Assembly (NCBI GenBank): GCA_021234155.1
Contig: JAJEKV010000011.1
Location: 12,439,255 to 12,503,254, forward strand
Length of the DNA: 64,000 nt
Source: Isoetes taiwanensis
Lineage: Eukaryota; Streptophyta; Lycopodiopsida; Isoetales; Isoetaceae
Reading direction: 5' to 3'
The position numbers were made by a program, and so were the translations under genes. Each line of letters begins with the position of its first letter. The stretch's first letter is position 1. Shown here in pieces: positions 8,420 through 64,000 of the stretch. The notes under the pieces are model-generated. The model saw only the letters and a program-made list of their open reading frames with translations. It was not told the DNA's origin and ran no database searches.

Positions 8420-8736
8420 GGGTGAAAGCATGCTAGGGTGTACCATCTAAAGTACTTTTTAGGGAGTGCGAAACTACCCAGAAAAGTACCCAGCACTGGG
8501 TACTGGGAACTTGCATAAATGTCGCAATAAATAATAAGTTTGAGAGTTAATTCATTTATTTTAGTCTCTAATAGTATTGTTATCCTGTAGTACTATAGAT
8601 TGACATGTTATTGACCTTCAATTCAAAACTTTCGATTTTAATGGAAAGAAAAACCAGAAAGTATCAGTTTTAAAAGTACCCAGTGTGGGTACTTTTGAGG
8701 GTTCCAAAAGTGGTACACCGTAGCATGCTTTTACCC
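8420..8736. mobile_element. 317-bp MITE with GGGTRAAAGCATGC ends and 4-bp target duplication (left copy)
   Basis: The left end reads GGGTGAAAGCATGCTAGGGT. The right end, reverse complemented, reads GGGTAAAAGCATGCTACGGT. ATCG flanks both sides (8416-8419 and 8737-8740). There is no coding capacity. Internal AAAAGTACCCA words occur in both orientations. Its ends match element B best (GGGTAAAAGCATG with AGGGTGTC) and element A in outline, so it is probably a non-autonomous derivative. Confidence 0.85.
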
Positions 8737-25218: not shown

Positions 25219-25240
25219 GGGTAAAAGCACGCTGTGGTGT
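25219..25240 (+). repeat. Left terminal inverted repeat of element A
   Basis: Begins GGGTAAAAGCACGCTGTGG and is 22 bases long. Its inverse is at 35754-35775. Target duplication TTCA is at 25215-25218. Confidence 0.9.
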
Positions 25241-25809
25241 TCCAATTCGGCTATCCCCCCTATCCCCCCCAAAATGTGGCGTTGCATCCACCACTTTTGT
25301 GGTATAAAAGTATAATTATGGCACTGCTCAGCGGCCGTTATTTAAGAATAGAGTCCCAATTTGTGGGGGAAATTCTAATTTCAAAAACTGAAATTCAAAT
25401 TCAAATTCCTATTCTTTGGCCCCTTCCTTTTCTTTGCCTGCGTCCTGTTCTTTGGCTCCCTCCCTGCTGCAAGCTCCAATCCATTGTGGATATGGATGTC
25501 AATGAGGTAATCTGTCCACAAACTGGCATTTCAGACAGGAGAAAACGAAGAAGAACCAAGGAACAAGAAATGTTGAAGAAAAGACGCCAGAGGAAAAGAA
25601 GAAGAGAAAAAAAATTGGAGCTTGCAGAATTGGCAGAAGGATCCGGTCCATCAAGAAGTGCAAGCAGTAAACGCTGTATTGTCCTTAATTTGCTAACGTC
25701 TTTCCATAAACAGACCAAAAGAATGGAGGATAGCACAAAGAAAGAAATTTTACTTGAGTTTTTGAGGGATAAAACATTGGAAAAATTCATAGGTGAAGAA
25801 TTAAAGGAT

Positions 25810-26834
25810 GTGAAATAGCCTCCCTCTTGCACTCACACATCCCCGTGTCTTTACCAAATGGAGACAAGCAGGGTTCATTATAGTTGGACATCTTTGGGAT
25901 GGTGTGCGGTGGCTTTCCTGGTCCCGTTTTAAGGGAATGATTCAGAATGCAGGAGAAGGGGACAGGAAGATCTTTCGGGAAATACGTAGGACTTTGAGTA
26001 CCCTCTCTGGATTGGACGGCCCAAATGACAGATGGTCTTGCAAGGGGGAAGAGAAATATGTTGTTAGCACTATCTACTATCTCCTCTGCCCAGAATCCCC
26101 CCTAAAGGCTGCTAACAAACTAGGTATGGACGTCATGCTCACTTCACAGTTACTAGTCAATTCATGGTCAAACATCTGCTCCAAAAGATTGCAATTTTTT
26201 AGATGGCTAGCCCTACAGGGTGGAATTAGCACTATGGAGGTGCTCCATCAAAGGAGACTACTCGCTATAGATAGCTGCCCACTTGGCTGCAACAATACGG
26301 AAAACCTCTCTCACCTATTTTTTTGTCCCAAGATCCTGGACTTTTGGAAGTGGGCATATCCTCTCATCGGTATTACACCAGGACAATGTACTTGGCCTCA
26401 GATACTACTCGCAACTGATAGAGACATAGTATCAGCATCTCTGGTTAATATAGTACTCTGGGCAATCTGGAAACACAGATGTGGAATTGCTCTTGGTGGG
26501 CAGCTCTTTTCTTTAGACAGACTAAAGAACATCTTCAATTTGGAGGTGGCACTTATGGCTTTAGCCCACCATCGAAAGTTTGGACGTTTCTACAACACAG
26601 CTTTGGACAGGATTGGCAGGGTTCAAGGCTTCTATATGTTCTTCAAATGTCACTGGGTAGATGACGATGATCCTGGGGATGATCCGAGTCTCAACTTACA
26701 AAGACTGGCCCTTGTTTAGATTTGATACTTGCTATTCATTACTTATGGTTCCTACATATAGGAAATATGTATTATAATACCTATTAATATATACCATATT
26801 CTTACCCTCAAAAAAAAAAAAAAAAAAAAAAAAA
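25810..26834 (+). mobile_element. 5'-truncated LINE nested in the element A transposase gene
   Basis: The target duplication GAATTAAAGGAT is present at 25798-25809 and 26835-26846, possibly two bases longer with the preceding AA. The insertion ends in a poly(A) run (26811-26834). Removing it rejoins the transposase reading frame exactly in phase across Glu-Leu-Lys-Asp. It therefore inserted when that frame was still intact locally. Confidence 0.95.
25904..26719 (+). pseudogene. LINE ORF2 C-terminal end with zinc-knuckle (zf-RVT-like) domain
   Basis: A 271-codon open frame, uninterrupted, covering the region after the reverse transcriptase. It contains FFRWLALQGGISTMEVLHQR, then CPLGCNNTENLSHLFFCPK (C-x3-C-x7-H-x3-C knuckle), VNIVLWAIWKHR and a C-terminal acidic stretch WVDDDDPGDDP. 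This domain follows the polymerase in plant LINEs and probably binds nucleic acid. The start codon of this frame is incidental, because the element is truncated 5'. The openness suggests a fairly recent insertion. Confidence 0.8.
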
Positions 26835-27779
26835 GAATTAAAGGATTTGGAAGCCAAGAGCATCGTCATAAGGAGCCTCTGGGACTCCATGCAGACTGTC
26901 AAACTCTCTACCAGCAATGACTGCCTAGCAGCCAAGAATAGCTGCCTTGCAATGTCTGTACCACGCCGTGCAGATTCTGAAACAAGTGACAAAATCAGCC
27001 AGCGAGATCTTGGAAAGGTATTAGGTGTTCACCCAAGAAACCTGCAAAAGGCAAAGAAAAAGAGGGAAGAGATCGATTACAATGGTGGGAAATGGGTTTC
27101 TTACAAGAGGGCTAAAAGATTCGATGCAATTTCAGATGAACATATAGAAAAGATTCAAAAATTTTGGATTGAGAACACCAGAGTGTCTCCTAACACAAAG
27201 GATGTTAGAACTAGAAGATTGGAGAGAAATATAAGAGAAGAACATGCTGCCCACTATCTGGAGGAATCACATGTTAGTTTATTTCTGTTATTCATGTTTT
27301 CTTAGTTATGGTGCTTAGTGTGGTGGTGCATGTGGTGGTTATTGTGTTGTACAAATGATTGTGGTGTATCAGATGCGAAGATGTGTGTAGTTGACTCTAG
27401 TCCGAAATGCAATATTTAATATTTGGAATATTATTAGAACATGACGAATTGAGTACTCCTTTTACCGGGTGTGTGTGCAGTCTAAAAATATTTGAGAATG
27501 ATAACTAACTGATCCTAAGATACAAATTTTTGTTGAATAAAGATAATTTTTTGTCAGATTCAAGCACAGCTCTGTTGGAAAGTATAATATATTAAAAAAG
27601 GGATCTTACAAAATTTGGCTTTACAAAATTTGGCTTTCCATTGAAAGCTCATGCAGAAACTAAATTTACATGCATTTCCTAAGCAACAAGAAATGCCGGT
27701 ATGACTGCTCGAGAACCGGTGCATCAAAATTATTGTTTTCTCGCACTAAAGCATCTAAGCTTTTCTGCGGTCATCCTGC

Positions 27780-28167
27780 AATTTAACAGATGAGGTTTGC
27801 CGGTGCTTCCTCGTGCATCCTCCGGTGGTAAGAACGCAACCACCGATAAATCCCGGCTGCTGCGAGTCGAGGCGGACAAGTGACAGAACAAATAAACCCG
27901 GTGCCCTTGCGGCGAAGATGTAACATAAGCTCATGGACCTTGTCTAAGAGCTCACATCCTATCAATCGACTCAAAGCACGCGACCATTGAAGGCCCAAAG
28001 ATCCACCTGTTGTATGCCTTTAGGTTGGATTCGAAATCAGCAAAGAAGGTGGATTTAGGCATATCCACCTTCATAGATTGATCACGAGCCCTGTTTAACA
28101 TGTGCCGAATGCCCTCCTCGCTCACCCTACAATAGCCATAGTGATCTCTGAACATCGCTCCTACCAT
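27780..28167 (-). pseudogene. Unrecognised coding-like stretch on the minus strand inside element A
   Basis: 28167-27952 reads MVGAMFRDHYGYCRVSEEGI, then MPKSTFFADFESNLKAYNRW and FESID. After one frame shift near 27960 a second frame continues IGCELLDKVHELMLHLRRKG and GTGFICSVTCPPRL. The two frames together look like one protein of at least 120 residues with a single frameshift. I do not recognise it. It lies within the large gap of the transposase gene, so it may be another captured gene fragment, but chance openness is possible. Confidence 0.3.
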
Positions 28168-28365
28168 GTTGCCGGAATGAACTTGTTCGAATTGGGAATG
28201 AAAAGCAAAAAATCAGACGTAGGAACAGGATTTAGGACCCAGATCCTTTTCTAATGATTAGAAGAGGAATGTAATTATTATCAGGGTGTATGAATTTCAA
28301 AAGTGTTTATGAGAGCAGGCTAGGCAGATTTTTTATGTCAGATGAAATAGGATAAAAGTGATGTG

Positions 28366-29105
28366 ATGTGATGTGTGGTGTCGTGATGGTGTGGTGTGGT
28401 GTCTTGATGGTGTGGTGTGGTGTGGTGTGGTGTGGGTTGCGTTATGTCCATGGTGTCATGTGGGTGTGAATGTATGATATGTGTGGATTCAATTTTATTT
28501 ATTCTCCCCCCTCACCCCACCACACCCCATCATCTATCCCACCACCATAGACTACCGCCACATCTTTGCGACCACCACATTACCACCACATGCACACACA
28601 TCCCACCACATCCCACGCCACACCCCTCCACCACCACCACCACACTCCATCACCACACTTCACCACCAACACACTCAACCATGTACCACACCACACCCCT
28701 CCACCACCACCACCACACTCCACCACACCACATCACACCACAATCCACAACACCACACCACACCACCACCACTACACCCCCAACACTCCACCACCACCAC
28801 ACTATACCACACCACACACCACACCCCACCACCACACTCCACCACACCACATCATACCACCACACACCACTACACACACTACCACCACACCACACACCAC
28901 TCCACCACCCCCACCACCACACTCCACCACCACCACTCCCCCACCACCACACTCCACCATTTGGTGTATGGTGTGTGATGAATGGTGTGGTGTGTGGTGG
29001 GGTGTCATGTGGTGTGTGGTAATGTACACAGCACTAAGGTGCTGGCTCAGTGAATATGATGAGTGTGGGGCATGGTATGGTGCATGGTTTGGTGTGGTAT
29101 ACACA
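28366..29105. repeat. Satellite tract of element A with strand switches (GTG, then CAC, then GTG)
   Basis: 28366-28440 is GTGGTGTG-rich, 28504-28965 is CACCACCAC-rich with CACTCCACCACCACC and CCATGTACCACACCACA words, and 28965-29105 is again GTG-rich. The outer parts can pair with the middle. The long His/Thr/Pro-rich open frames here are repeat artefacts. Confidence 0.85.
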
Positions 29106-31024
29106 TCCTAACAGTTTTAGTGTTCATTTCATGCATGATATTGTTCAAGAGGTTTTACGGACCAACATCCGTAAATTAAGATTCGCCTTCGAGCTTTTGA
29201 GAAGCTAAAACCCCGGTTTGTTGTGAAATTGAAGGACTTCAATAGTTGCTGTTGCATTCAGCACGTGAGGATGCAAATGCTAGTGGATGGACTCAATGGG
29301 ATGAGAACCAAACATCCGAAGAATTGCACTTGCACCTACGATGTTTGTAGATCACATGAACTTGGTCAATGCAGGGGCACACCAAAGATAAAATTGCAAG
29401 TACTGAAGCTTGTGGAGATCTATATTGTGTCCAAAGAGTGAATTAGATGAGTTTCACAAGAAGGCGTGCATCCTTGGAAATTGTGAGTCGTGGTGGAATC
29501 AAGAAGTTTCGCACTGTCCCATGGAATGAAGTGGCGAGGGAAAGTGAAATGGGAGTACATTGACTATGAAAAGACAACGCCCCGAAGTTCTCGGTAGGAG
29601 ACCCGACTCATCAAGACAATGAGACGTAACCCAAGGAGCTTCGGATAAACCGAAAAGAGCGTCTAGAAATCTTTCCAATTGCATAATTTCAAAAATGTAC
29701 CAATGGCAGGCAAAACAGTTTAAGGAGCTTCTGGAGAATCTCCCAGCAGATGCATGTCTCTCGGTAGTGGATTTTGCAGAGAGCTATACATTCAAGGAAC
29801 AAGAGGAGGTGTAGTCGATGCGCTGGGTCAATAACCAGATTACCATTTTGGTTCAAATAACATATCAAGACGACTCGATTGGCGGAATGAGATTATCAAG
29901 GAAACACATTACTATGTATCAGATGATAGGGAACACGATACTTTGTTCGTGCAACACTGCTTCATGAAGCACCACAAATATCTGGAGCACAAAGGAAGGG
30001 TGCCAAAGAGACATTATGTGTTTTCAGATGGTGCAGCATCTCAATTCAAGGCTTCTAGACCATTTTACTTTGTGGCTAGGTACACAAACGACACTGATGT
30101 CTATATGATGTGGAATTCTTTTGGTTCTAACCACGGGAAAGGTGAACACGATGGCAAAGCTGCTGAGTTGAAGAGATGATTAAGACAACTGCAATTAAAA
30201 TACAACAGCATAAAATTGGATAATGCTCATGAAGTGGTAGACGTTGCCAAAGAGATATTTACTTGTGGAACATCCGAGTGGATGAACACATCTGAAACCA
30301 GTAAGAGGAAGAATATAAAAAGGTTCTTTTGGGAAGTCAAGGTGGAGGATATAGATAGAAAGAAAGCATGGGGTGCAGAAAGGATTTTGGACACTAGGCA
30401 GATCCATTGTGTACATGCATTCAATCCTGAATCTCCATTGTAGTTGCACACGAGGGAACTTTCATACTTCAGCCTCTTGCTTGGATGGCATGTGGGGCGG
30501 TTATTGTGTGAACAAGCACTATGTTGATGATTGGAAACTTCAAGTTATTGTACCATCCTCCAATGTGCATGCTGACATTGAGGACCGTAAATCCAGCAGG
30601 TCCTTGTTCTCCTCCAATCCCACGATGTTAGCAGAGGCACTTAGAGTTGGTGATAATTTTGCTGTCGTTGCTCCGAAAGGGAATGATGAGGGTTCTGAAT
30701 TTTGGATTCTGATGTGCACAAAACCAAAATGGATAGTGGAGAAAGACTTCCAACTCAATGGAACATGGTACCTCGCCGGTAATAGTGTCATAGAAGGTAT
30801 TACAAGAAGGGCGCAAGATCAACCGTCGACTATGATCTTTGCGAAAGATGCCTTAGGCATAGTATTCACAACACAGATCTGTGCAATCAGACTTCACATG
30901 CCACCAACTAAACGTCAAAACAGGACTATATATAGGCTGGATCCTTTAGATGAGGAGAAAATTTTACAGAATTTACGCGAAGTTCTTTCTGATGATGATG
31001 AAATGTAAAACCATTCTGTAGTTT

Positions 31025-32201
31025 TCAGAACTCATGTGAAGTTTTGTGCTTCAAATTGTGAAAATGAGTTTGTCTTGATTTCTTTTGAAGATCTGAATTC
31101 TTCCTCAAACACTTGATTCCTTTGTTTGTGAGATGAATTGAATATGAATTTTCATTGAAATGAATCGAGGTTACAATAACAATTATGTACATAAGAAAGA
31201 TATACAGTGATTTAAGTACGAGGTGACTCATGCACCTACATACTTCCCAATACATATGTTCCTCTCGGTTCGAAATTTTTGTTGCTTCTAATCTTAAAAC
31301 TTCAAGCATGAACACTCTAACATCAACTAGATCCCGGTCTGAAATGTCCACAACCCGCGCTTAACCACACTTTGTCAATAACATGAGTTTGGTTTGTCTG
31401 CTGCATTTAAGTTGACTTACTAGATCGGGGCAACAATATATTCACTCCTTTCAAGTACCCCTCACAAATTTGTGCATAAACGAACATCTTGCGGCAGGCC
31501 ACATGAATGACCATCGGTTTGAAGAGGCGCTCGAAATTTTCACAACATCCGAGGTTGTAAAGCTGAAATTATTGTTTCCAAGCAATTCCAAGAACCTCGC
31601 ACTCAAAGTTTGTTGTCATTGTGCCACAACAAAGAAAATGCAATGAGCAAGCACTAACCTCTCAATATGTGCCGCCCATGCAAGCCCGAAGCTATCAAAG
31701 TGATATATCCCTGGTTTATATCTCTGTGCGAGACACGCGTGGCTTACAATCAGAAAACAGGTCCAGTGATGTCCATCACAAGCAGGCAAAAACATGTACT
31801 GGCACTTATCCAGATTCACATGTTTCCTTATTGTTTTGTAACTATTTGTGTCCTTGGACAATGTTGAGTGAAAAAGAGGGTCAAAGAAATGAAAGGGATG
31901 GCTCATTCCTTGGAGAATCAAGTAGTATTCCATGTATCTGCAAACATATGCATATGATGGCACAATCCTGATGATCACAAATCAGATGAAAGTATCACCT
32001 TGAGAAGAGGAGGATCAATTGATCATTGAACCATTGTGTATCAGCTTCCAAAATTTTGATGTCGGTGGAGCTAATCACGACAGTTTCAGTTCCACTCAGC
32101 ACCACTTCCAGATGTGTATTTGGCTTTAGATAGTCAGGGACTGCCGAAGCTCTATCATCTCTAGTTCTAAACACACACGAGAACATTTGCTCACAATCCA
32201 T
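31025..32201 (-). pseudogene. Ulp1-type (peptidase C48, SUMO-protease-like) domain of the element A cargo gene
   Basis: Ulp1 proteases process and remove SUMO; many plant transposons carry captured relatives. Exon 32201-31999 ends QWFNDQLILLFS; a 61-nt intron (31998-31938) with donor GTGATA and acceptor TTTGCAG joins it to YMEYYLILQGMSHPFHFF. Then DKCQYMFLPACDGHHWTCF supplies the catalytic-type His-Trp, and IYHFDSFGLAW the Asp. The catalytic Cys region is not clear: downstream (31610-31480) a Cys-rich stretch reads in several frames. 31348-31025 carries VDISDRDLVDVRVFMLEVLR, a plausible C-terminal end. In transcription order it follows the NIF domain. Broken frames after 31616 suggest a pseudogene. 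Confidence 0.7.
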
Positions 32202-32349
32202 TCAAATATTTTAAATTGAAAAACTACAACACATATCATAGAAATTTTTTTACTTATATTGACTTTCAAAGAGTTTTACAAGATTCATTTATGAAAATAC
32301 TTGTCGAGCATTTTCATGCGATTCTTGTGACTCTTCGAGAATCCCACAT

Positions 32350-33115
32350 GTTCCACATTTGATGTTCCTTCACATAAGCCGGCACACTTTCTCGCAGCCG
32401 TAAGTCCCTCCACCATGGTTTGAGTTGCTCCAAAAGGAAATTGGAATCCAACCCGTCCGGAGCAAAACTATTTGGACATATCATTGTGTTCTACCGGGTT
32501 GGCGTAACCCTTATATCTCACCGGGCTGTCATCTATCAACAATGTGTTTGTCACCTGGTATCTCCAAAATTTCAGATACACTTTGGACAGATCCTTAAGG
32601 AAAATTGGCTTATTAACCACTTTTAATTTTGTGTTGGTGCAGTCATCCTGATTCCAAATAAAAAGAAATCTGCCCTTATATTCCTGCAGCAATTTTCTCA
32701 TCAACAAGTCAACATTACTCTTAGCCATGCTGGACCACAATGCAATCTCAAATTTTGAAAAACACCATTCTAAGAACTCCTGTAATCCAGGCCTGGAAAC
32801 TGCTAACTTTTGATTGTTCAATTTCTGGACGGTCACTTCTGGCTCGGCCGATGCAGGGATCCTCACTTTCAAGTCATAAGACTTGCCTAAAACTCCATTA
32901 AAATCCAGAACAAGGAGAATTTCAGTTAACCTCTTGGTTTTTCTTGGTTGAGGTTGTATTGGACTCGTTGAGCAGTCTGCATCTTGTCTAGGATCCGGGG
33001 TTTCTTTGTCAACTTCATCACCTGCATCCGCATTTGGCTCATGTTCAGCACCAAAACTTTTTTCTGGTGAAGGACCCCGCGCAGAATGAATCTCAAGGGA
33101 ATTAATTCCCCCCCC
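32350..33115 (-). pseudogene. NIF/FCP1-like HAD phosphatase domain of the element A cargo gene
   Basis: The frame is open from about 33115 to 32468. An acidic Pro-rich lead (DAGDEVDKETPDPR) is followed by EILLVLDFNGVLGKS (HAD motif I, D-x-N instead of the usual D-x-D), RPGLQEFLEWCFSKFEIALW then SSMAKSNVD (motif II region), and NTLLIDDSPVRYKG (motif III-like acidic pair). This is the layout of NLI-interacting-factor/FCP1 homology domains, which act on phosphoserine in proteins such as the RNA polymerase II tail. A stop follows, after which LLEQLKPWWRDLRLRE and VPAYVKEHQMW continue in another frame. That C-terminal extension is also found in element B. The missing second Asp of motif I makes catalytic activity doubtful. 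Confidence 0.75.
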
Positions 33116-33119
33116 CTAA

Positions 33120-35546
33120 AACAGATGCACTAGGAATCTCTTCGTGATGGCTTCCAGTTGCAGTAGCATTTATCTCTGCAACATAATTAAAATGAGGAAG
33201 ACCACAGAAAAATACAAAAAAATAAATCATGTATGTGGCATCGGTACTTACTTGATACGACTGCATTCAGTTTACTATCCAAATTTCGTTTTGGAGTCTC
33301 CACGCCGTCAGCAACTGGGATTGACTTAGGAGTATCAAATGGGGTGAATTCTAGGTACAACCGGGAGGTATCTTGCAGTCTCATAACTGATCGAGGCGTG
33401 GATAACTGTTGGATATCCTTGGTCTCAAATTTACGCAATTCAAGCACTAAGTCGATGACTGTGACAACATCAGTAAACATTAGTTAAGGCACTTACTTGT
33501 GTCTATTGGTTCTTGTGGTACCACTCGAATACCAAAAGCCAAAAGCCATGTCTCAATCATAATGTGGGCACAACTAGGGCTGCAGCAGTTTCTAGAGTGT
33601 CTGCAAAACAAATTCAAAATCAATAGAGTCTTTAGACGAGGGTTAGAGATGATAATATTTACCTCAAATGGTGTGATAGACATGGAATGTGATACTGGTG
33701 ACTGCATTCTGCTATCACAACTGGCAACATTTTACCCTCCCATTTCAGACAACGTCCACAAAATGGACAACCTTCATCACCCTCTTCTTCTGCCTCAGGA
33801 AGCATTGGAAGTGCAGGATCTAAAGGAGTGTCATGACCACTACGCTCAGAAAAAATCTCAAATCTTTGCATTCGAGGTAGCAGCTCCAGCAGTAAGTCTT
33901 CACATGCCTTTAGCTCAATTTCAGTTTCTGCTAATTCCTTTTTAATTGATTCAGCCCAGGCAACACTGTACCATTTAGCTCTTCATCCTTTAGTTCGCTT
34001 ATAACCCGAACACCCTCTGCTGCTTTCGTATTTGCTGTCATGATTGATTGCCATCTGTGCAAATCAGCTCTAATTTCTGATGTTTTATGCTCCATCAACT
34101 CAATCTTTCTTTTGATATCATTTTTCCTATCCTCGTTTGCTTGCAATCGTTGCTTGAATCTATCAAACCTAGCTGATGTTGCAGCCAACCATTCCTTCAC
34201 AAGTCTGCCATAGTCTGCAAAACAAAACACTACGTATATGTCAGCCTCCTAACATAGTAAGCCACCTACTGATGAAAAACCACAATCACACACCACACAA
34301 CACAAGGTAGTCTCTACACACCACCACACACCACACAACATACGCTGCACAGTACACACCACACAACATGCTGTGGTGGTGGTGTGTGTGGTGGTGGTGG
34401 TGGTGTTGGTGGTGGTGTGTGTGGTGGTGGTGGGGTGTGGTGGTGGGGTGTGTGGTGGTGGTGGAGTGTGTCGTGGGACATGGTGGAGTGTGGTGATGGG
34501 GTGTGGTGGTGGGGTGTGGTGTGGTGGTGGTGGAGTGTGGTGGTGGTGGAGTGTGGTGTGGGACATGGTGGAGTCCGGTGGTGTGGTGTGGTGGTGGTGG
34601 AGTGTGGTGGTGGTGGAGGAGTGTGGTGGTGGTGTTGGAGTGTGGTGGTGGTGTGTGGTGTGGGAGTGTGGCGGTGGGAGATGGTAGAGCGTAGTGGTGG
34701 GAGATGGTGGGGTGTGGTGTGGGACATGGTGGATGCCAACAACTCACCACCACCACACATACCTCATCTATCATTCGCATCCATTGCACCTAAATGCCCC
34801 ACGATGGCATCATAGAGACACAACATGACAATACAACCAACATGATGCAAAATGGTAGTAGACATACCGATTCTTGAAGTGGATTTGATGTTACCTTTTA
34901 CGTGTTGATAGAAACAATCTAGATCAAGCTTGAGATTTTTTTTTTGTAACACAACTAATAATTGAACATACCCGCAATGGCATGTTTTGGTCTCGAAACA
35001 TTGCTCTCTTTTTTTACGCTTTGATTGTGAGTTCAGATTGAATGTGTGGCCTAGAGGAACCTGATTTGGTTTTTTTTTCCTATCATCTTCATCATCCCTG
35101 TCACTTTTAATATTTTCCTCCTCGTCAGGTTGGATTTGCCTATGCTTTCTCTTGGGTCTAGAAGAACTGGCCTCCACTTTCTCATTGGGAGTTTTATAAT
35201 AATCTGAGAAGCTCTTCCAATTAACAGCCTCCCCCTTATATATGCATAATAAGCCATCGCCTGTGTTCCGGGAGCCATTCCACCCTATGTATGTGGCTTT
35301 CCTGTAATTCTTTTGTAAATTTGCATGAACTCTTTGTATTGTTCATTGCTCAGATTCTTCAACCTGTACAAGAAAATATATGCCTTAATTTTTCAGTTTG
35401 AACAAAATATTTGGGGGAAAATACCTGTAGCCAGATTTATTTGGAACTCTGTCATCCCAAAGCTTCTTTAGATCTTCGTGGGGCACAATCTCTTGTTTGA
35501 GGAGAGATTTCATCGTGTAACCAGTGGCGTTCAATTCTGACTCCAT
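33120..35546 (-). pseudogene. Cargo gene of element A, 5' half: N-terminal domain, linker, coiled coil, RING-like finger
   Basis: ATG at 35546 (MESELNATGY), exon 1 to 35425, exon 2 from 35363. Exon 2 carries KEFMQIYKRITGKPH, an in-frame TAG, then the Y-Y-x-x-I-x-G stretch and a Lys/Arg-Asp/Glu linker. The intron 34762-34215 is largely satellite. The next exon begins DYGRLVKEWLAATSARFDRF and is a coiled coil. After a one-base shift ELAETEIELKACEDLLLELL leads to GCPFCGRCLKWEGKMLPVVI and ECSHQYHIPCLSHHLR: C-x2-C followed by C-x-H-x2-H-x2-C. The following exon starts HSRNCCSPSCAHIMIETW, supplying the last Cys pair of a RING-like finger (a possible ubiquitin or SUMO E3). The exon FTDVVTVIDLVLELRKFETK precedes the NIF part. 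Homologous N-terminal features recur in element B. Confidence 0.6.
34320..34745. repeat. GTG-rich satellite in the element A cargo-gene intron
   Basis: Same composition and words as 1755-2215, with small length differences. Relative to the 28504-28965 tract it is in the opposite strand sense, so the two tracts form a long imperfect inverted pair within element A. Confidence 0.9.
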
Positions 35547-35753
35547 TAGGGTTCAATCGGCAAGAAGCGACAAAAAAACAGAAGAAGAGGTGATTATTTC
35601 TTAATTCAAAAAGGTGGACAATGACGTGGCATAAAATTCAAAATAACTGACGCTCATTAATTCGCACTCCCGCAATTTCCGCTTAGGTATGCACCACCCG
35701 ATTCTACCACAAAGGTGGTGCCAAAATGTGGCGTTAAAATGTGCGTTTTTGAT

Positions 35754-35775
35754 ACACCACAGCGTGCTTTTACCC
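35754..35775 (-). repeat. Right terminal inverted repeat of element A
   Basis: Ends CAGCGTGCTTTTACCC and is the exact inverse of 25219-25240. It is followed by TTCA (35776-35779). Element L has the same end at 3236. Confidence 0.9.
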
Positions 35776-37170: not shown

Positions 37171-37491
37171 GGGTGAAAGCATGCTAGGGTGTACCATCTA
37201 AAGTACTTTTTAGGGAGTGCGAAACTACCCAGAAAAGTACCCAGCACTGGGTACTGGGAACTTGCATAAATGTCGCAATAAATAATAAGTCTGAGAGTTA
37301 ATTCATTTATTTTAGTCTCTAATAAAATTGTTATCCTATAGTACTATAGATTGACATGTTATTGACCTTCAATTCAAAACTTTCGATTGATTTTAATGGA
37401 AAGAAAAACCAGAAAGTATCAGTTTTAAAAGTACCCAGTGTGGGTACTTTTGAGGGTTCCAAAAGTGGTACACCGTAGCATGCTTTTACCC
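37171..37491. mobile_element. 321-bp MITE, right copy of 8420-8736
   Basis: GGGTGAAAGCATGC at the left end, inverse GCATGCTTTTACCC at the right end, ATCG at 37167-37170 and 37492-37495. It differs from the left copy only by small indels and substitutions, so it is the same insertion duplicated. Confidence 0.85.
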
Positions 37492-54660: not shown

Positions 54661-55224
54661 GGTCCCTTCCCTCCCTCTTCCTTTTTCTTTGTTGTTTCTG
54701 GCGTCTTTTTCATTGGTCGTTCCCTTGGATGTCTAGTTTCTGCAGAGGTCATGTTAGGTTCGGTGCATAGTACTCTTTGGTTGCTTTTCTGGTTTTTGTT
54801 CGGTTGGTCGGTGTGTTGCTTGGATGTATGATGCGTTGTCGTCTAGGGGTTCGTGGTTGGTTTACCGGTGCTTGTTTTGATTTTGTGCGTCCTTTTACGC
54901 TTGTAGTGTTGTTGTATTTTTGGAGTTGGGGTCGCATTTTTTCCAGTTTTTGTTTGGTGTGCCTCCGACTCGACCTTGGGATTGTCTTTCTGTTTCATTG
55001 GGTTTCATTTTTTGGGTCAATCTTTAGTTGGGTGGATAGTTGTCGTATTGTCATTTTTTTCCATCAATGGCCTGCGTGTTATTTATTCATTTTTCAGCTT
55101 TTTAGGGCGGCCGTTTTTATGATGCCCAACCTCGTAGTTTCTATGTTGCAGTCTCTAGATTGACCCTCTTATGTGTCAACATCCTTTTTTGCTTTCTTAC
55201 TTGTATGTATTCGTTGGTGTATAA

Positions 55225-55778
55225 ATTATGGATCATTGCTCGTTTTTGCGGAGTCGTTTAGTTCTTTTCCTTGAGTCGGTTTGCATTTGGCTAACTATAA
55301 TTGTTGTGGTTGTTTGTTGTCATTTGGCGGCTTATCTACTCCTTGTTGCTGATCTTTTTCCTTGTCCGCCTTCATTTAGTTTGACTTGAGGGTGGGAGCA
55401 TCCATTTGGGCATAAAGTGACTTCAGTCGTATGTTTAATTCTTTGCTTGGGTATTCCATGTATTTCTATCTTTGCAGTCTATGGTAGCATCCTTGGCATC
55501 ATATTATGGATCATTGCTCGTTTTTGCAGAGTCATTTAGTTCTTTTCCTTGAGTCGGTTTGCATTTGGCTAACTATAATTGTTGTGGTTGTTTGTTGTCT
55601 TGGCAGCTTATCTACTCCTTGTTGCTGATCTTTTTCCTTGTCCGCCTTCATTTAGTTTGACTTGAGGGTGGGAGCATCCATTTGGGCATAAAGTGACTTC
55701 AGTCATATGTTTAATTTTTTGCTTGGGTATTCCATGTATTTCTATCTTTGCAGTCTATGATAGCATCCTTGGCATCAT
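55225..55778. repeat. 278-bp tandem duplication, two copies
   Basis: ATTATGGATCATTGCTCG starts at 55225 and 55503; both copies end GCATCCTTGGCATCAT. The second is two bases shorter and nearly identical, so it is recent. Confidence 0.9.
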
Positions 55779-55839
55779 AGGTTTCTTAGTTGAGGGATGC
55801 TCATTTGTTTGTCCATTTTACATTGTTTGTCCCATGACC

Positions 55840-55893
55840 TATTGGTCTCCGTGGACGTTAAAAAAACTATTCTATTCTATTCTATTCTTCTTG
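55840..55893 (+). mobile_element. Very short 3' end of the LINE-L/LINE-R family
   Basis: CCTATTGGTCTCCGTGGACG followed by TTAAAAAAAC and three to four ATTCT units. It is the last ~50 bases of the family, a severely 5'-truncated insertion. Confidence 0.8.
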
Positions 55894-57440
55894 GAATTTG
55901 TTGATCTCCTTCTGCAGGTTATGGGGTTTCCCGTCATCGCTAATTTATTTATGCGATTACATGGTTCATTGGTTTAGTTAGAAGTGGCTCATTTCTCTCC
56001 ATTCTCTCCGGCCTTTAGTTTCATTTGGTACTCTTGATGCTTGCTCTATTTCTTTCTTTCTTTCTTTCTTTCATTCATTCTTTCTTTCTTTCTTTCTCTT
56101 ACCTCATGACTTTCCCTCCTTCTTCCTTCCCTTTTGCATGAATGTCTCGTCCCATTCAACCTTTGTTGCATCGGTGGTACCCATTGCTCTATTTGTTCTT
56201 ACTCCATGTATCTCACGATGTCCCCTTCGTTTGGTTTTTGATTCCTCGATATCTTCTGATTTGTTGTGCTCTGGTCCTTTTGTCTTAATCACATTTCTCC
56301 ATCCATTTCATTTGCTTCTGTTTCCTTTCTTGATGTATCTTCTTGTCGCCTATCTTATTTCTTGTTTACCTTCATTTAAAATTGACTAGTCCTACTAGTC
56401 TTTAGTGGTGATTGGCGTGTTTGAGTGAGTATGTTCGTCTGAGTGATAGGTTCTCTCTTTAGTGGTCTATTTTATGTCCTTTTTGCTCTCGCTTTCGGAT
56501 TTGAAGGTTTGGAACCCCGTCTTGTTTTGTAAGTTACGTAGTGAGTAAAAGTAGAGTTGGTAGATGTTGGTTTTGTCAGGTTCCCTTGGGCCAGTTGGTG
56601 TTTAGATTAGTATATTGTCAGAGTTGATGGTTTTTTCCTTTGGTGGCCTGCCCATGTATGGTTCCCTCTTTTTGCGAATGTTGATAGTTTATAGCCTTCG
56701 TTGGTTTTAGTTGCAGGGTTCTTAGTGTGGAGAGATTCGAGCTATGGTTCGGTTGGGGAGGGCATCTCGAGTAGATGCTGATAAGAATCATTTTTTGACT
56801 TGGCGACTAGAGGGGTCAATGTCAGACTGGCTTCTTGGTATTTTTCGTCTTGTCATTACGAAGGGGTGGTGCCATCTCTAGTGGACATTGATGGGGATCG
56901 TTGTCAACTCTTTGTCCACTTTTAACAAGGTGCTAACTACTTTGTATGTTGCTTTTTTACGCCAAGTCAGTTTTGCATTTTAGTTGCTTCATTGCATTTT
57001 TGGCAATTTCTCACTATATCCTGTATTTAATCAACACATGCCGGTTGCCCCCTTTTTGTTGACATTTTGGCACTCGACCTAAGGACTTTAGCACGAGTTG
57101 TCGGGCGAGTCAGGTATTTCCAGTATCTTGTATATAACCTTCTCCATTTGGGATAGTCTAGCATTTTTTCTACTCTTGAACTTTTCCATAGCTGCATTCG
57201 TTATGAGTTGGTGATTCATGTTAGTTCATGCCATGTTGCTTTTGGTTATTCTCAACACTTTCTATCTCGTAGACATGGTTGTGGTCCATAACGTCTATTT
57301 TCTACCGCAATTAGTCCTTTTAATGCGCTTTGCTTCCATACTTAGATGTGGTCCTTTTTTGCTTAGGATCTCAGGTTCCCCCGTCGTTGGTCTATTGGTA
57401 CCATTTGTGGTGGTCGCTTACATTTGGTCATTTTGCAGGA
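55894..57440. other. No gene seen; T-rich, with a CTTT/CATT microsatellite
   Basis: A strongly T-rich + strand continuing the composition of 52-55 kb. A CTTT microsatellite with a short ATTC interruption lies at about 56050-56098. Short open frames here are hydrophobic because of the T bias and lack motifs. Confidence 0.5.
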
Positions 57441-57697
57441 GGGTAAAAGCATGAAAGGGTGTCTATAAATGTAGCCCTTTTTGTACATATACATATGTAC
57501 AAAATGCACATTTTTGGAATAACTGTTATCATGACCCGCTAGTAACTGCCATGATTAATGGCTATCCACTACTCTGAACCCGCAATTATCGGATTTTGAA
57601 ATTCTTTCCCAAATTCTTTTTTGGTTTGCCTCTCGTTCACTATCCCGCGCCCCTACCTTCTCTGCTTGAATTCCGATCACGAATTCTTCATCTAGCT

Positions 57698-58850
57698 ATG
57701 GCCCCAAAACACCCCCAGATGAGTGCTTGCTCATCATCACAGCCCAAGCAAGAAGCCAGTGCTTCCGGCAGTGGATTTTTACCTCCAAGGAGTTTACGTT
57801 TGGGTTCTGAGGTGATCCAAGCCAAAGACCTCCGTGATAAACATGTAGAGGCCCACATACCCAACCTAGAGATGGTTATGAACGAGGTATGGGGTGAAGC
57901 TCCAAAAAACAGACGAGGATTCAAGGAAGGGAGAATCCAGAACGCATGGAAAGATGATTTTTTTAAATATTATGAATTGGTTTATGGCAAGAAACAGGTT
58001 ACAAACCATTATATTTCTACCTATTTTGCCAGAGCATTTGCTCTTCACTTGAAGGGACGGCTTGTTGATTGGATGGACGTGGCTAGGACCGCCAAAGATC
58101 TTGCCAAAACCCTCATTTCGGGCGTTACTGAGAGGACCCTACAACAGGTAAATCCTCAACTATCAAACAGACATCGTATTGCGCGAATATTAGAGCCCCG
58201 AGTTATTCTAGATCAGATGTTGACACAATAAAGCGCTTACTTAAGCATGGGTTGGAGGAGAAAACTAACCTATTGAATGAAGTAGAAGCACCGGAAGAAA
58301 AAAGGAGGGATGCATTGAAGGTCATCGGCCCGGATTGAGGGTAGAAAGGATATGCTATCCAAGATCTGCAGCCAGATCTGCCGAGAAAATAGATGAGACA
58401 AAACAGAATTTGACAAATTGTCCCGGATCCTGCTGGAAATCAAGTTATCTTGGTGTTGAAGTACAAGTTGGAAGACTTGGTTATGAGTAGACATGATAAA
58501 GAGCAAAGACTCTTCTAAGCTAGACATTAGTTTGCGAGGAAGCAACTAAAGAAATTGAAAGGCATGAAATCTCAATTGAACAAGCAAAGGAAAAACTTAA
58601 TTGCATTGAATTGGTTCAGCAAAGGCATTCACAGATTTTGGATTTCATGGGGAGAGCAGGACCAATTGTTCTTTTTGAGGCCCTACCCCTCAGAGGGAGC
58701 TACTTCTATAGAGCAGTTCATCACATTCGGTTCATGTACTGTTGTGGCCAAGGCTTTGGCAAAACTGGTTTTGTTGTTTACTAGCTCCATGCGTAGATGC
58801 TTATTGCCTCTTCGCTTGTGTTATCTGTCCATGAAAGACATAATTGCATA
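57698..58850 (+). pseudogene. Element B cargo gene, N-terminal domain and degenerate Cys-rich region
   Basis: ATG at 57698 (MAPKHPQMSACSSSQ). The frame to 58231 carries NEVWGEAPKNRRGF, FFKYYELVYGKKQVTN and FARAFALHLKGRLVDWMDV. The spacing W...Y..Y...GK...(Y/F)A.A..LH+KG..V.W matches the element A N-terminus (KKLWDDRVPNKSG, EFMQIYKRITGK, YYLHIKGEAVNW). After 58231 the frame breaks; 58241-58600 is Lys/Glu/Leu-rich, coiled-coil-like. 58640-58790 in mixed frames contains FMYCCGQGFGK and FITFGSC, which sits where element A has its RING-like finger but lacks clear paired Cys. Function unknown. Confidence 0.55.
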
Positions 58851-58979
58851 AAAGGTTGCATCCGGGATGAGGGCATTCGAATTGACTTGGTTTCCCTCTT
58901 TGTGAAAGGTATGCATTGCTCTCAACTAATTTAAACTTATGTTTCTCTTAATTCATATTTGTTATTGTAATCTGCATAG

Positions 58980-59405
58980 TTCTACATGTATGGCTTTCAG
59001 TGCATTGCTATTCCTTGTACATGTATAACTTTTAGTGTACATCTGTAAGCAGAGGTACATAGGCATATATTTGCTTGTTTATTGATGCTTTTATTTTTGA
59101 GCTTGGACTGTAGTTGTATCAGTTGTACATGTCTCTAATGGAATCTACATCTGCAAATAGATGTACATGCATTTATCTTTAGAGTGCATCTGTAGATGGA
59201 TTCATAAGTATGTGCATTTTTTTACATATATGTGCTTTTTTTTGGGCATAGATCTACATTCCCTAACTGGATACCTGGGTACATTGATGTACCTCTATGT
59301 ACATTGAGGAACATGTACATGTACATTTGGCTATAGTTAAATGTAGTTACGTACATTTGGTACATTTTATGTACATGAAATGTACATGCTTGGCGTAATG
59401 TACGG
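58980..59405. promoter_or_regulatory. Cluster of GTACAT/ATGTAC motifs
   Basis: At least a dozen GTACAT or ATGTAC words within 430 bases in a non-coding part of element B. A second cluster is at 63045-63110, and the subterminal sequence at 57478-57502 has three. Possible protein-binding sites for the element; no function is proven. Confidence 0.35.
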
Positions 59406-59439
59406 ATATTTCTCATTAGTTCTGTTTTCATGTTCTTTT

Positions 59440-60427
59440 ATGTCTATTGAAATTTAGATCATTTGTTTGTTTGCGATGAGGCTATTCCTATCCCGTATGA
59501 CTTTAATGGTCGATGTTCTTGAGCCATCTGCATCGACTCTCTTTACTGATTTTATTGAGCATAATAAGCGGGATCGAATCAGACCCTCAACCTTCCAGCT
59601 CCGGATCACCAATGACATTTACATTGCGATAATAGAACCATCTCGCAAATGATGCCTCCTCGAACATGGCAAAGTGAAGTTGAGGAAATTGAGAGGATGG
59701 CACTTGAGAAAGCTAAAGCAGATTGCGGTCTGCACCCTTCAATGGTCGCCGCAATGAAACTCCTTCATCACCAAGTGCTAAATTAGTAATTGGAGAAGCT
59801 AAGAAAGATTCAGCTTTTGTCTTAGCATCATCTGCAGGTCCCAGTTCTGGACCTGTTACAGAAGAAGCTACAACGGAATCAGATCCAGATTTTATCCCAG
59901 AAGATACCAGGGAAGAGGAAGTTGAGTTGGTAGTTGAGTCCACTCCAAAGAGGAGGCAAAAGAATGCTGGTGATGGCACTCCAAGAGGAAAAAAACAGGC
60001 AAAATCTCCAGCAACGAAAAAATGTCCTCCGAAAAGAAAATCTCCAGGCAAAAAAGTGCCACCACCACCTAGAAAGAGGTATGTCCAAGACGAACTAATT
60101 TTGTTAAACATCTCAGATTTATGATAATTAACCACATTTTTTTTGTACATAGGACACGATCACAGGCCGTGAAGGAAGCTGATCCTGATCCTTCTGAGTC
60201 GGAACCGGAAGAGGAAGAGGATCTACAAGCAAATATTGATGTTTCAAATAAGGTGCAGCAGTCCACAGAAGATGCTGAAGTAGGTGATGAATTTACAAGG
60301 TGAGTAATATACAATTGATTACAATAGATATATTCTTTTGCTAATGCTGTTGTTTCCTTGTACAGTTTAGTGAACCGACTGAAAAGGTTGGTTCCATTCA
60401 CTCTAAGATGGTAGATGTCTATGGGAG
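59440..60427 (+). pseudogene. Element B cargo gene, middle exons: unknown domain and basic/acidic linker
   Basis: 59467-59652 reads STFQLRITNDIYIAIIEPSR, which parallels STPRSVMRLQDTSRLYLEF of element A (exon near 33440-33250). 59723-60078 is a Ser/Pro/Lys-rich, acidic then basic linker (PDFIPEDTREEEVELVVES, RGKKQAKSPATKKCPPKR) that may hold a nuclear signal. It splices (donor GTATGTCC at 60079, acceptor at 60152) to SQAVKEADPDPSESEPEEEE, then across 60300-60370 to EPTEKVGSIHSKMVDVYG. All junctions keep frame. The linker probably connects the N-terminal domain to the Ulp1 domain. Confidence 0.5.
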
Positions 60428-60515
60428 GTAGGCTAGCATTTCAACATATTTATGTTATTTCATTCCCTAAGTCACTCATCTTATGTATTAATATGTATTC
60501 TGGATTTGTGTGCAG

Positions 60516-61315
60516 GTACCTTTGTAGCAGTCTTCCATCTGATTGGAAACACAAGTTTTTTACTGTTTCGACCGACACCTTCCGAAATTTTGTGAATTCC
60601 CTCAGAACCCAGGGGCATGCACGTAACACTAACATAAAGGAAGGGCTGGATGGCATTTTGATTGCAAGATGCCAATACATATTTGTTCCAATTCGCAAGG
60701 CCCAAATGTGGCATTGGCCATACTTGTGCTTGCCGGTCCGCAGTGAAAAGCTCTTGTCCATCTATAGCTAGCCCAAGTATACAGATCCTCTCTCTGTCAA
60801 AGGCTATGTACCCGATGCTAAAGTGGTCCGTAGTAAGTATGAGTTTCTGTTTTGTTTTATGATTTGATTATTCTCATATTGCAATTTCTTATGCTTGATT
60901 TATTCTCACATTGCAATTTTGCAGGTTTCATAAGCTTGTGATCAATAACATGATGCTCGGATCCAACAGCTTAAACCATGGTAGGAAGAACTTTGATGCT
61001 CCTGTGTTCTCGTCCTAAAATGCCGAAACTAGTACCAAAGAACCCTTGCATGTACATTGTGGCTTACATGCACAAATTCATAGATGCCGTGGTTGATGCA
61101 CAGCCAAGCTCCATTTTTGTAAGTAGAACATGTTATTTTCCTATTAGTTATTTGTTGGTATAGTCCTCTAATACTTGTGCACCATGCAGATGACACCCAG
61201 TTGGTTCACTGATGCCTATGCCAAGTCACGGAGGGATCATCTAATGGAGGCATTAATTGTAGAATGCGAGATGAATATACAAGCAGTTGTTCCTACACAG
61301 GGTAGATAGTCCCTT
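60516..61315 (+). pseudogene. Element B Ulp1-type (C48) protease domain
   Basis: Exon 60516-60832 reads YLCSSLPSDWKHKFFTVSTD, then ARCQYIFVPIRKAQMWHWPY, with the His of the catalytic dyad in WHW. Where the family has an Asp (element A: FDSFG), this copy reads IYS followed by TAG, so the Asp codon is lost. After an intron (60833-60924), 60978-61120 reads MPKLVPKNPCMYIVAYMHKF, the place of the catalytic Cys. The exon 61191-61302 (TPSWFTDAYAKSRRDHLMEA) follows after an intron and ends with donor GTAGAT. Stops at 60772 and near 60937-60990 mark a pseudogene. It joins in frame to the NIF exon at 61521. Confidence 0.65.
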
Positions 61316-61520
61316 TGACTTGTTTGTAAATTACAGTTTTGTATGAGCCATGCTCCCAGCTTCTTTGTACTCAATAAGTAATGAAAAAATTAATTTATTT
61401 GTCTCACTTACACCTGTGCAAATAACAATTGTGTAATTATCAATGTGTTTTCTCAATTGTGTAATCTGAAATGTAATTATAAATTGTGAATAGACTCTCA
61501 AGTGTTTTGTTGCTGACAGG

Positions 61521-62291
61521 TGAATCATCTAATTCATGGAGAAAGCTCATTACCTTTGACTTAAATTCGGTGTTGGGCAAGAGTGTGCACAAGAATGAAA
61601 ATATTAACTCAAGATACCAAAAGATCCAGAAAGATGAGCTTCAATTCAATATAGGAAACAGGTTTTTTTTACTGCAGGCCAGGGTTAGCATCACTGTTTG
61701 CATTTGTAAGAGAAGGGTTTGATGTTGCCATCTGGTCTTCACTCACTTCTAAAAATCTTCTACCAATTGTGGATCAAATTTGTGATGCTTTTTCCATAAA
61801 GCTGAAGTTTGTTTACTGACCGGGGAGCAAGATGTTGGACTACGCCACACAAACACCCTCCCCATCGAACCTCAAAAGGGGTCGTTTATGAAGCCATTAG
61901 CTATGGTATGGAAAGAGTACCCAGAGTACTATGGAAATACAGTTTTGATCGATGACGAGAGATACAAATCCACTCTGAATCCCGTAGGAAGCTACATATG
62001 TCCTTTCTCTTGGCACCAATATTAGCTGACGACAGTTTGCTTGTCATGGAGCTCATTCCATGGCTTAATGGATTGAAAATGGCTGAAGATGGTATAGTTT
62101 ATGTAAAAGAGCATCCAATGACTAATGCAGCAGATAGCATATCAGAGCAGGTGGAAAATATTTTGCTGGCAAACTATGGCAGCAACTTGGGTGCTCTGCT
62201 GCCTAAATTTAGTCAATATATGGAGCAAGCAATGGAGAAACTGCCGTCATGTTATTGGCCTCTCGACTGGCCCATTGTTGGTACAGACTAA
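61521..62291 (+). pseudogene. Element B NIF/FCP1-like HAD domain
   Basis: The exon begins GESSNSWRKLITFDLNSVLG after acceptor CTGACAG (61520). It shows motif I as D-L-N, RPGLASLFAFVREGFDVAIW and SSLTSKN, then NTVLIDDERYKSTLN and, after a frame shift, ELIPWLNGLKMAEDGIVYV with KEHPM. These match RPGLQEF, ALWSSM, TLLIDDSP and YVKEH of element A in order. As in A, motif I has Asn in place of the second Asp. It directly follows the Ulp1 domain, the reverse of element A. Several stops and a frameshift near 61990. Confidence 0.7.
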
Positions 62292-62454
62292 AACTGATGT
62301 ACAAATTCAAATGTTATGAATATATGTATGAAAGTTTTTGTTCATTGCACTTGAGTACTCTGTTTTTACTGTCTTTCTTATTGGTACAATTATGAGTGTG
62401 TATACATAATTAAGTCAATCTTCATTTGCTTTGTAGATGAATGGACTGAAACAC

Positions 62455-62860
62455 AAAAGACTATTATGAAACTAAGAGATCAGTTCTGCTGCACCCAGAG
62501 GTAATAGAAACCAACACAAGCTGCAAGCACATAGGGTTGGGGACCGATTATCGCCTCTATACTGTTGTTCCTGGACTGTGGGAAAAGGTTGACCAAATTG
62601 AAAACTATGAGGAACGAGCAACCACAAAATGTATATTGGCAGCAACTCACTTGTTGCACAACCCTTGGGGGAAGGCACGTGTCCGGGAAGATGAAGGCCA
62701 TGTAGGATGGAAAGGTTTGCCAGTGGCACGAGCTATAGAAACCGCATGGACTACTGCGTTAGAGGATATCTCTACAGCCTCTAGGCGGGCTGGAAGACAT
62801 GATGCAATAGTCATAAGATATCAGGCTCCTACTGACATTTTGAAGCTAGGCCATGAATTA
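62455..62860 (+). pseudogene. Element B cargo gene, C-terminal unknown domain
   Basis: An open frame from about 62455 to the stop at 62861 reads RSVLLHPEVIETNTSCKHIG, YTVVPGLWEKVDQIENYEER, THLLHNPWGK and SRRAGRHDAIVIRYQ, ending LGHEL. I do not recognise a family. It could be the last exon of the cargo gene or a separate small gene. No counterpart was found in element A by eye. Confidence 0.4.
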
Positions 62861-62861
62861 T

Positions 62862-63342
62862 GAGCCATGCTCACTTTCAGGTGTGTTGTATTTATGTCCA
62901 CAATATAAATATATCAACCATTTGTACATGAAAACCTGTCCATTTCTTATCTTTGCCATGACTGAAATTATTTTTAATGTTTATGTAATTCAACTTTCTT
63001 ATGTTCAATTCTAATCAATTTACACTTAACAAATATCTCTGGAATGTACAACAGATGTACATAAGATGTACATAGGATGTACATATTATGTACATTGATG
63101 TACCTAATGCACTATTGAAGTAGTCCTTGTCATGTACAATGAAAATTTGTTCAGTTCTTATCTTTTATATGAACAAAGTATTACAATATTTAAAAGTACC
63201 ACAGATCGACTTAGTCCAAGTCATCTACAATTCTTTGGAAGTTGTGATAACAATGTCTCATGGACTTCATCCGGCAAGTGAAATGTTGTGCTTGCCCCCT
63301 TCAAATTTGTGTTTTACTTTGTTGAATGGGATTCAACCCCAA
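62862..63342. other. Spacer between convergent genes of element B
   Basis: AT-rich, with a run of ATGTACATA words at 63045-63110. No coding signal on either strand. Confidence 0.5.
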
Positions 63343-63840
63343 TCACGCATTCTGCAGTACCAAAACATTCTTAGTAGGAAGCGGTTTATACTTATTGTGG
63401 CGGCACGGGATTAGTTCATAATATTGTCCTTCAATGACACTAATGCCGGCAGAGTAATCATTTCCATAGTCATCAATTGAATCTTCTTCCAATGCATGCT
63501 TTTCCCTGGTGCACATGAGAACATAGTATGAAACACCTTCCACATTGTCCAGTGCTTGCAAAAAGACACAAATACATATGAAACTCCTACGGTGTCATCT
63601 AAACCAGCCCTCGTCTTACGCATACAAAACATCCACATCATTTTCAGCTTCACCACAAGAGGCAATATGATCTCGTGGGCTCCAAACTTTTAGAGACCAT
63701 TCTCCACAATGTTTAATGTTCTCACAATTCAACCAATTGAAGTTAATGCAAGCATCACAAAAGCACGAGAGTGGTCTGCGCATAGCAACTTTGTTGGATC
63801 TGGCTGGGTTTATAGTTGACACGAATGTATCTGGCCGAGT
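63343..63840 (-). pseudogene. Element B transposase-like gene, C-terminal end (partial)
   Basis: On the minus strand 63822-63616 reads RRPLSCFCDACINFNWLNC, CENIKHCGEWSLKVWSPRD and a stop; after a frame shift 63561-63343 reads VEGVSYYVLMCTREKHALEE and ISVIEGQYYELI. Element A's transposase C-terminus has the same order: a Cys-rich cluster with W-K-L-Q-V, FWILMCTKPKW and NSVIEG. So this is the end of a homologous gene entering from the right. The catalytic part is off the window. Frameshifted at least once. Confidence 0.65.
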
Positions 63841-64000
63841 ACCGTGTAAAGTCTTGCAATTGAATGCTTGCTCATTTGCTCACATCTGCTTTTTCCAACC
63901 TCCCAAAACACCCTTTCACAATTCGATTCCTTGGCCCTTAAAACCGCACAAAAAGCCGTTTACGCGACTACACCGGCATGCCATTTTGTTTTCTCTGCTC

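Follow-up and report, generated by a model that had tools for sequence, protein, structure and literature searches.

A high-copy DDD-type DNA transposon family of Isoetes taiwanensis with a multidomain accessory gene and family-specific motif clusters

Introduction

How transposons evade silencing in plants has been worked out in detail for the Arabidopsis VANDAL elements, which are Mutator-like elements (MULEs). As described in the available excerpts, VANC21 localises to the introns and to the intergenic and terminal non-coding regions of VANDAL21 via YAGTATTAY (PMC5735166), and the targets of VANC form tandem repeats that vary between related transposable elements (PMC5735166, PMC10398659). 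Ulp1-bearing accessory genes are described, in the portions of the papers at hand, for both MULEs and CACTA elements (PMC2528002, PMC13317346), and hence this kind of gene is already known. Here we describe element B, a DNA transposon at the right end of a stretch of 64,000 nucleotides (the window) from Isoetes taiwanensis (assembly GCA_021234155.1, contig JAJEKV010000011.1, positions 12,439,255 to 12,503,254 of the forward strand), and compare it with a diverged element of the same window, A. B is a decayed copy of a high-copy family of cut-and-paste DNA transposons with GGGTAAAAGC termini, and the plan of this family consists of two convergent genes, one for a transposase and one for a multidomain accessory protein, or cargo, which, to judge from its substitution ratios, is a selected component of the transposon.

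Results

Element B occupies positions 57441-66659 in window numbering (9,219 bp) and is flanked on both sides by AGGA, a 4-bp target-site duplication (TSD). Its right terminal inverted repeat (TIR) lies 2,659 bp beyond the window end; within the window a right TIR was ruled out, the best local match scoring 25 against a null maximum of 30, that is, at chance level. The original prediction, which rested on the window only, gave 57441..64000 as the extent of B, where 64000 is just the window edge, and expected a right TIR within about 10 kb; this TIR is present, at a distance of 9,219 bp and with matching flanks. The terminal motif that it ascribed to both elements, GGGTRAAAGCAYG, occurs eight times in the window and in none of 40 dinucleotide shuffles.

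A search of the 1.66-Gb assembly of the same genome with the first kilobase of B yielded 616 candidates, 40 of which were scored (93-100% identity); 20 copies were examined, namely, B and 19 others (L011-L029) drawn from these best-scoring 40. Both ends with matching 4-bp flanks were found in ten out of 20 copies, B included (AGGA, AAGT, TCAA, TTAT in three copies, ATGG, AGTG, TTCA, CTTC); the other ten have no such matching end within the 10 kb taken per copy. The order N-terminal domain, RING-like region, Ulp1-like block, NIF domain, C-terminal domain, and opposing transposase is seen in nine out of ten two-ended copies and in 12 out of 20 overall. Small indels recur at identical spots in many copies of the family (e.g., consensus 4490-4545) and represent either base-calling errors of the assembly or hypermutation, so that frameshift counts are affected. 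A strong AT skew (to -0.425) was observed at window positions 52001-58000, to the left of B and over its start.

The minus-strand gene of B is a DDD-type, Sola-like transposase with an RNase-H-like fold, the likeness to Sola being one of described features. A profile built from 36 outside transposases, A and B excluded, matches B at 63619-63879 (E 6.1e-11) and 63346-63594 (E 4.8e-11), and the C-terminus of the A transposase matches the minus strand of B, the expected one, and no other (score 111, null maximum 51, z 17.3; 60 shuffles); the transposase was recovered again with B as the query, in keeping with the transposase-like gene foreseen from the letters alone. As in Sola, TSDs are 4 bp long, in ten out of 20 B-family copies, in A (TTCA/TTCA), and in the miniature elements of the window (ATCG/ATCG); those of MULEs comprise 7-12 bp according to the excerpted source (PMC10741241). 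No MULE family appears among the Pfam matches of the 36 homologs (E 0.01) or, at E 10, for the joined catalytic part of A. A protein search with the C-terminus of the A transposase alone gave no match, and Foldseek alone found no PDB match at E 0.001.

Several side observations concern the same gene. One out of 36 transposase homologs matches DUF7869 (E 0.0074), a hint that the two may be distant kin. Viral contigs gave 132 pattern matches and no relative of the transposase, and the only find in prokaryote genomes was a truncated contig (L001) of a cyanobacterial (Trichormus) metagenome bin, which carries transposase and reverse-transcriptase-like frames and is probably eukaryotic contamination. 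Other plants with the transposase include Taxus, Calypogeia, and Klebsormidium. A homolog from Labeo rohita (P0045) is labelled "Sentrin-specific protease 2" by its source; no Ulp1 part is seen in its sequence.

The cargo of B consists of an N-terminal domain, a coiled coil, a RING-like region, an Ulp1-like block, a NIF domain, and an end of no known family, the latter open over 129 codons in the consensus and with no match in Pfam or in A. In frameshift-tolerant comparisons of the A cargo with the DNA of B (60 shuffles per piece), the N-terminal domain (score 76, null maximum 47, z 10.7) and NIF (score 146, null maximum 58, z 21.5) match on the expected strand only, and in the reverse comparison the NIF of B is recovered in A; both domains had been named as common to A and B in the original prediction. 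The similarity of the RING-like regions consists of Cys/His spacing and weak Pfam scores. The predicted structure of the N-terminal part is uninformative (mean predicted confidence, pLDDT, 38).

The claim of one and the same two-gene convergent plan in A and B holds for the two convergent genes and fails for the domain order, since NIF precedes Ulp1 in A and the Ulp1-like block precedes NIF in B. The NIF-then-Ulp1 order characterises the A family: 34 out of 42 listed matches to this stretch, A included, span at least 1,594 of its 1,601 bases. At least 18 out of 46 diverged places with the N-terminal domain have a listed NIF 4-7 kb downstream. In the sister subfamily, copy L050 has the layout of B from the N-terminal domain to the Ulp1-like block, and C112 carries the N-terminal domain and NIF, 4.1 kb apart. 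In L050, similarity to the consensus ends past base 4349, near the NIF start, and a fragment read as PPR-like follows; this break is a deletion, an insertion, or a capture.

The NIF domain of B is matched by Pfam (PF03031) with E 4.8e-9 on the joined frames and E 7.9e-14 on the family consensus, the consensus (52.1 bits) and A (51.8 bits) both scoring above the curated cut-off of 21.8. NIF phosphatases carry the motif DxDx(T/V), in place of which we find DFNGVL in A and DLNSVL or DLNFVL in the B family and its sisters.

The Ulp1 domain of A is sound, with its catalytic residues kept. It is similar to SENP5 (E 7.7e-7) and reaches 18.5 bits in Pfam (cut-off 20.7); the motifs HHW, FDS, and QTDGHSCG are present, spread over different frames of the decayed copy, and among four other copies of the A family HHW is seen in three, FDS and the Cys in all four, and the complete Q-x5-C-G in two. 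The corresponding claim for B is not borne out as worded. The Ulp1 of A has no significant match in the DNA of B (z 1.5, and at another place), the joined frames of B give no Pfam Ulp1 match, and Pfam and PDB searches with the Ulp1 reading of B were negative or near E 1; the score of the decayed reading was reached by none out of 2,000 shuffles for SENP7, 40 for SENP2, 127 for SENP5, and 17 for the Ulp1 of A. A W-H-W taken for the catalytic His-Trp was rejected, as it depends on a missing base, i.e., on a frameshift reading: 11 out of 16 aligned copies have one base more than B at this place, and only L026 reads as B. The family frame here is LQGPNVALAI, within CQYIFVP[IV]LQG[PL]N[VF][AG]LAI[LF]VLAGP, and lacks His-Trp. 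We take it as coding because no stop interrupts it in the consensus or in the sister copies L050 and L051 and because it has ratios of nonsynonymous to synonymous substitution rates (dN/dS) of 0.31 and 0.26. Its score is reached by none (consensus) and one (L050) out of 2,000 shuffles against the Ulp1 of A, and by one and one against SENP7. From these comparisons we conclude that B has a degenerate Ulp1-like block, which is probably inactive, as the family frame has no His-Trp. As this case illustrates, when a decayed copy is inspected by eye, an apparent catalytic motif may be a frameshift artefact.

The assembly has 2,246 candidate places for the N-terminal domain and 5,196 for NIF. Selection was assessed by comparing the consensus with 20 loci picked from 150 listed for the N-terminal domain, stop-free ones being favoured, and with 14 picked from 151 for NIF; one chosen locus, L058, has one stop. 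For the N-terminal domain, 11 out of 20 loci with dS 0.52-0.77 have dN/dS 0.17-0.33, not all of them independent, since the counts of L047 and L048 are identical, and at the nine with dS 0.14-0.34 the ratio lies between 0.55 and 1.11; all 190 pairs among the 20 loci give a median of 0.43. For NIF, five out of 14 loci (dS 0.67-0.85) have 0.13-0.22, four (dS 0.14-0.27) have 0.56-1.01, and five near copies (dS 0.03-0.10) have 0.13-0.73. The ratios of the Ulp1-like block come from two loci (65-66 codons). The chosen loci without such low ratios between subfamilies are near copies or relics in decay. Between A and the second A copy of the window (A'), there are 9 substitutions at first, 12 at second, and 15 at third codon positions (about 455 each, two of the exon windows sharing about 20 bases), which is the pattern expected of dead copies. 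The simplest reading is that selection acts on lineages of active elements and each inserted copy decays neutrally, so that copies within one lineage drift and by themselves are no sign of function. Values well below one for the Ulp1 and NIF domains had been named in advance as support for a functional cargo, and between subfamilies such values are found in all three domains; together with the right TIR they bear out that part of the original prediction, and its idea of a single retained Ulp1/NIF arrangement is not supported, given the opposite orders and the lack of His-Trp in B.

The non-coding parts of the B family are rich in one short motif. On both strands of the B part of the window, ATGTACA occurs 32 times, whereas 200 dinucleotide shuffles give 1.2 occurrences on average and seven at most, with 23 of the 32 sites outside the only tandem array and none in 2,538 coding bases (coding blocks were set from homology). 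The consensus (9,298 bases) has 52 sites, two of them within its 5,276 coding bases, and they lie at both ends, in a cargo intron, in the intergenic spacer, and in a transposase intron; nine full copies, L023 being left out, carry 48-53 each. In sister copies L050 and L052, ATGTACA is the top 7-mer of the same intron (10 and 12 sites). A carries CACCAC/GTGGTG instead, both in the TIR and subterminal DNA and in arrays within two of its introns. As with VANC targets, a family-specific short motif is thus concentrated in non-coding DNA.

Further features are summarized in Table 1. Element A sits inside a DUF7869 coding sequence (window positions 24699-25216 and 35783-36028): profile positions 54-80 stop at its left edge, and 84-160 start at its right edge. 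A segmental duplication with 95-98% identity (585-4396 versus 33121-36961; 8211-10465 versus 36961-39209) takes in the miniature element and also the right-hand portion of A', whose right TIR is at 3226. A piece of a long interspersed nuclear element (LINE; zf-RVT) lies within the transposase gene of A at 25813-26846, and by eye a 12-bp duplication, GAATTAAAGGAT, can be made out on its two sides. The first candidate for A, at 43-50 kb, was rejected, its inverted repeat pair being read as LINE remnants; one piece was scanned with Pfam and gave no match.

Table 1. Positions of the described features in the window.
Feature	Positions	Strand	Remarks
Miniature element, same terminus type	8420..8736	.	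TSD ATCG
Element A	25219..35775	opposite orientation: transposase +, cargo -	TSD TTCA both sides
CACCAC-type array, A transposase intron	28355..29100	.	
Ulp1 domain of A	31410..32090	-	downstream of NIF; His, Asp, Gln, Cys present
NIF domain of A (DFN)	32330..32930	-	
CACCAC-type array, A cargo intron	34280..34770	.	
Duplicate of miniature element	37171..37491	.	TSD ATCG
Left TSD of B (AGGA)	57437..57440	.	right copy outside window, after 66659
Element B, in-window part	57441..64000	.	whole element 57441-66659
Left TIR of B, GGGTAAAAGCATGAAAGGGTGT	57441..57462	+	directly after AGGA
Subterminal ATGTACA-type palindrome	57479..57504	.	
N-terminal domain of the cargo (reading frame open in B)	57698..58148	+	
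Cargo coiled-coil part	58149..58700	+	open through in consensus
RING-like Cys-rich region	58722..58883	+	weak Pfam scores, Cys spacing
ATGTACA cluster, cargo intron	59016..59390	.	
Ulp1-like block of B	60514..61150	+	His-Trp absent in family frame
NIF phosphatase-like domain of B	61540..62140	+	DLN instead of DxD
C-terminal cargo domain, no known family	62450..62863	+	no Pfam match
ATGTACA cluster between convergent genes	62923..63139	.	11-bp tandem array 63044-63107
Transposase of B, C-terminal part	63224..64000	-	catalytic part beyond window

Discussion

Purifying selection on the accessory protein while subfamilies separated indicates that the protein serves the element. By analogy, its role would most likely resemble that of VANC, namely, recognition of the family motif and countering of host silencing, a reading on which our confidence is evenly split. 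The protein, alone or with the transposase, would recognise the motif of its own family (ATGTACA in B and its sister, CACCAC-type in A), the motif repeats in terminal, intronic, and intergenic DNA would be the recognition places, host silencing would be countered there, and the RING-like, Ulp1, and NIF parts might touch ubiquitin, SUMO, or phosphorylated chromatin factors. We place this role ahead of the others on account of the motif, which is not the same in the two families and whose sites are scattered through the non-coding interior; the cargo may act in anti-silencing, in helping transposition, or in both.

A number of observations weigh against it. The cargo has no recognised DNA-binding domain, and the VANC parallel, though close, is an analogy drawn from descriptions. 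Four parts of the A cargo, namely, its coiled coil, RING-like region, Ulp1, and tail, have no significant match in the DNA of B, and the N-terminal fragment of B matches A' (z 6.8), not A (z 1.8), where a stop and a frameshift occur at the place of the would-be match. The enzymatic roles of the NIF domain and the Ulp1-like block in B are doubtful, judging by their motifs. Asn takes the place of the second Asp of the NIF motif in A, as well as in the consensus of B and three out of three sister loci covering the motif, and ordinary phosphatase activity is hence questionable, though the domain is conserved. The family frame of the Ulp1-like block resembles the part of Ulp1 adjoining the catalytic His, yet has Asn-Val or Asn-Phe at the His-Trp position; it finds no match in Pfam or, at E 10, in PDB, its score against SENP2 is reached by one (consensus) and 66 (L050) out of 2,000 shuffles, and SENP5 gives no match (1,459 and 1,901, respectively). 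The loci were chosen by protein similarity and lack of stops, which biases dN/dS downward; in our judgement, which is not a test, the low values are too strong for this bias alone. Finally, the arrays of A look like impure simple repeats, and ATGTACA may be of use to the transposase or have arisen by slippage.

The cargo may instead be an auxiliary transposition factor, with the motifs as binding sites of the transposase or of a transposase-cargo complex, which we regard as possible but rather unlikely. Subterminal repeats bind the transposase in some other plant transposons, and here ATGTACA adjoins both termini as well as lying in the interior, the motif of A is part of its TIR, and the cargo is conserved along with the transposase; but most sites are in introns and the spacer, kilobases from the ends, where end binding needs none. 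It is less likely still that the clusters are functionless microsatellites or slippage products and the cargo acts otherwise, for although B has one 11-bp tandem array, and the arrays of A are impure CAC repeats differing in length between A and A', most sites of B in the window are outside the array, the motif is found again in the corresponding intron of the sister subfamily, at both ends, and at four separate non-coding places, and the coding blocks hold two out of 52 sites. It is improbable, and already hard to hold, that a host gene was captured and travels as a passenger, its low dN/dS being a trace of host-gene selection prior to independent captures: Ulp1 is often captured by plant transposons according to the excerpted source (PMC2528002), and the different NIF/Ulp1 order implies that at least one piece moved, but dN/dS is low between B and a sister subfamily of common layout (L050; C112), NIF lies downstream at those at least 18 out of 46 diverged places, and the whole plan is kept in nine out of ten full copies.

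Among known systems, Sola elements, as described in the available excerpts (PMC10741241, PMC3627910), share with this family a DDD transposase, a 4-bp TSD, TIRs, and a length of several kilobases; Sola2 elements carry another passenger, Fanzor1, and the excerpts do not mention a NIF/Ulp1 cargo. In one open-licence library of papers we found none joining Sola, transposon, and Ulp1, and a limited search gave no description of a transposase of this type, of NIF combined with RING, of opposite orders of the domains, or of a degenerate Ulp1, which is no claim of absence from print. KI-MULE/Kaonashi, other Ulp1 MULEs, and CACTA elements are likewise, in the portions of their descriptions at hand, plant DNA transposons with an Ulp1-bearing gene, which in KI-MULEs is also reversed relative to the transposase; in contrast to KI-MULE/Kaonashi, the present elements are not MULEs by TSD and Pfam, and their Ulp1 is joined with NIF and degenerate in B. 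The NIF domain resembles the NIF/FCP1-type phosphatases (PF03031) over its whole length, above the curated cut-off, and differs from them in the Asn for the second Asp of DxD.

A high-copy family with another transposase type, an accessory gene under selection, and motif arrays of its own would make it possible to ask if anti-silencing has evolved repeatedly and which components (SUMO, ubiquitin, phosphatase) are responsible. The A and B families, being unlike in motif and in the order of their domains, allow a direct test of whether protein and target co-evolve. We tentatively suggest, with less than even confidence, a second, independently evolved, sequence-specific anti-silencing system of transposons outside MULEs, in which a RING/Ulp1/NIF protein would co-evolve with its own motif arrays in a very abundant group of plant transposons. 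As far as the excerpted descriptions go, this family shares with VANDAL/VANC a transposon-encoded accessory protein and a family-specific short motif in introns, intergenic, and terminal DNA, often in tandem and differing between related families; unlike VANDAL, its transposase is of the DDD type with a 4-bp TSD, and unlike VANC, its accessory protein has NIF and RING-like parts.

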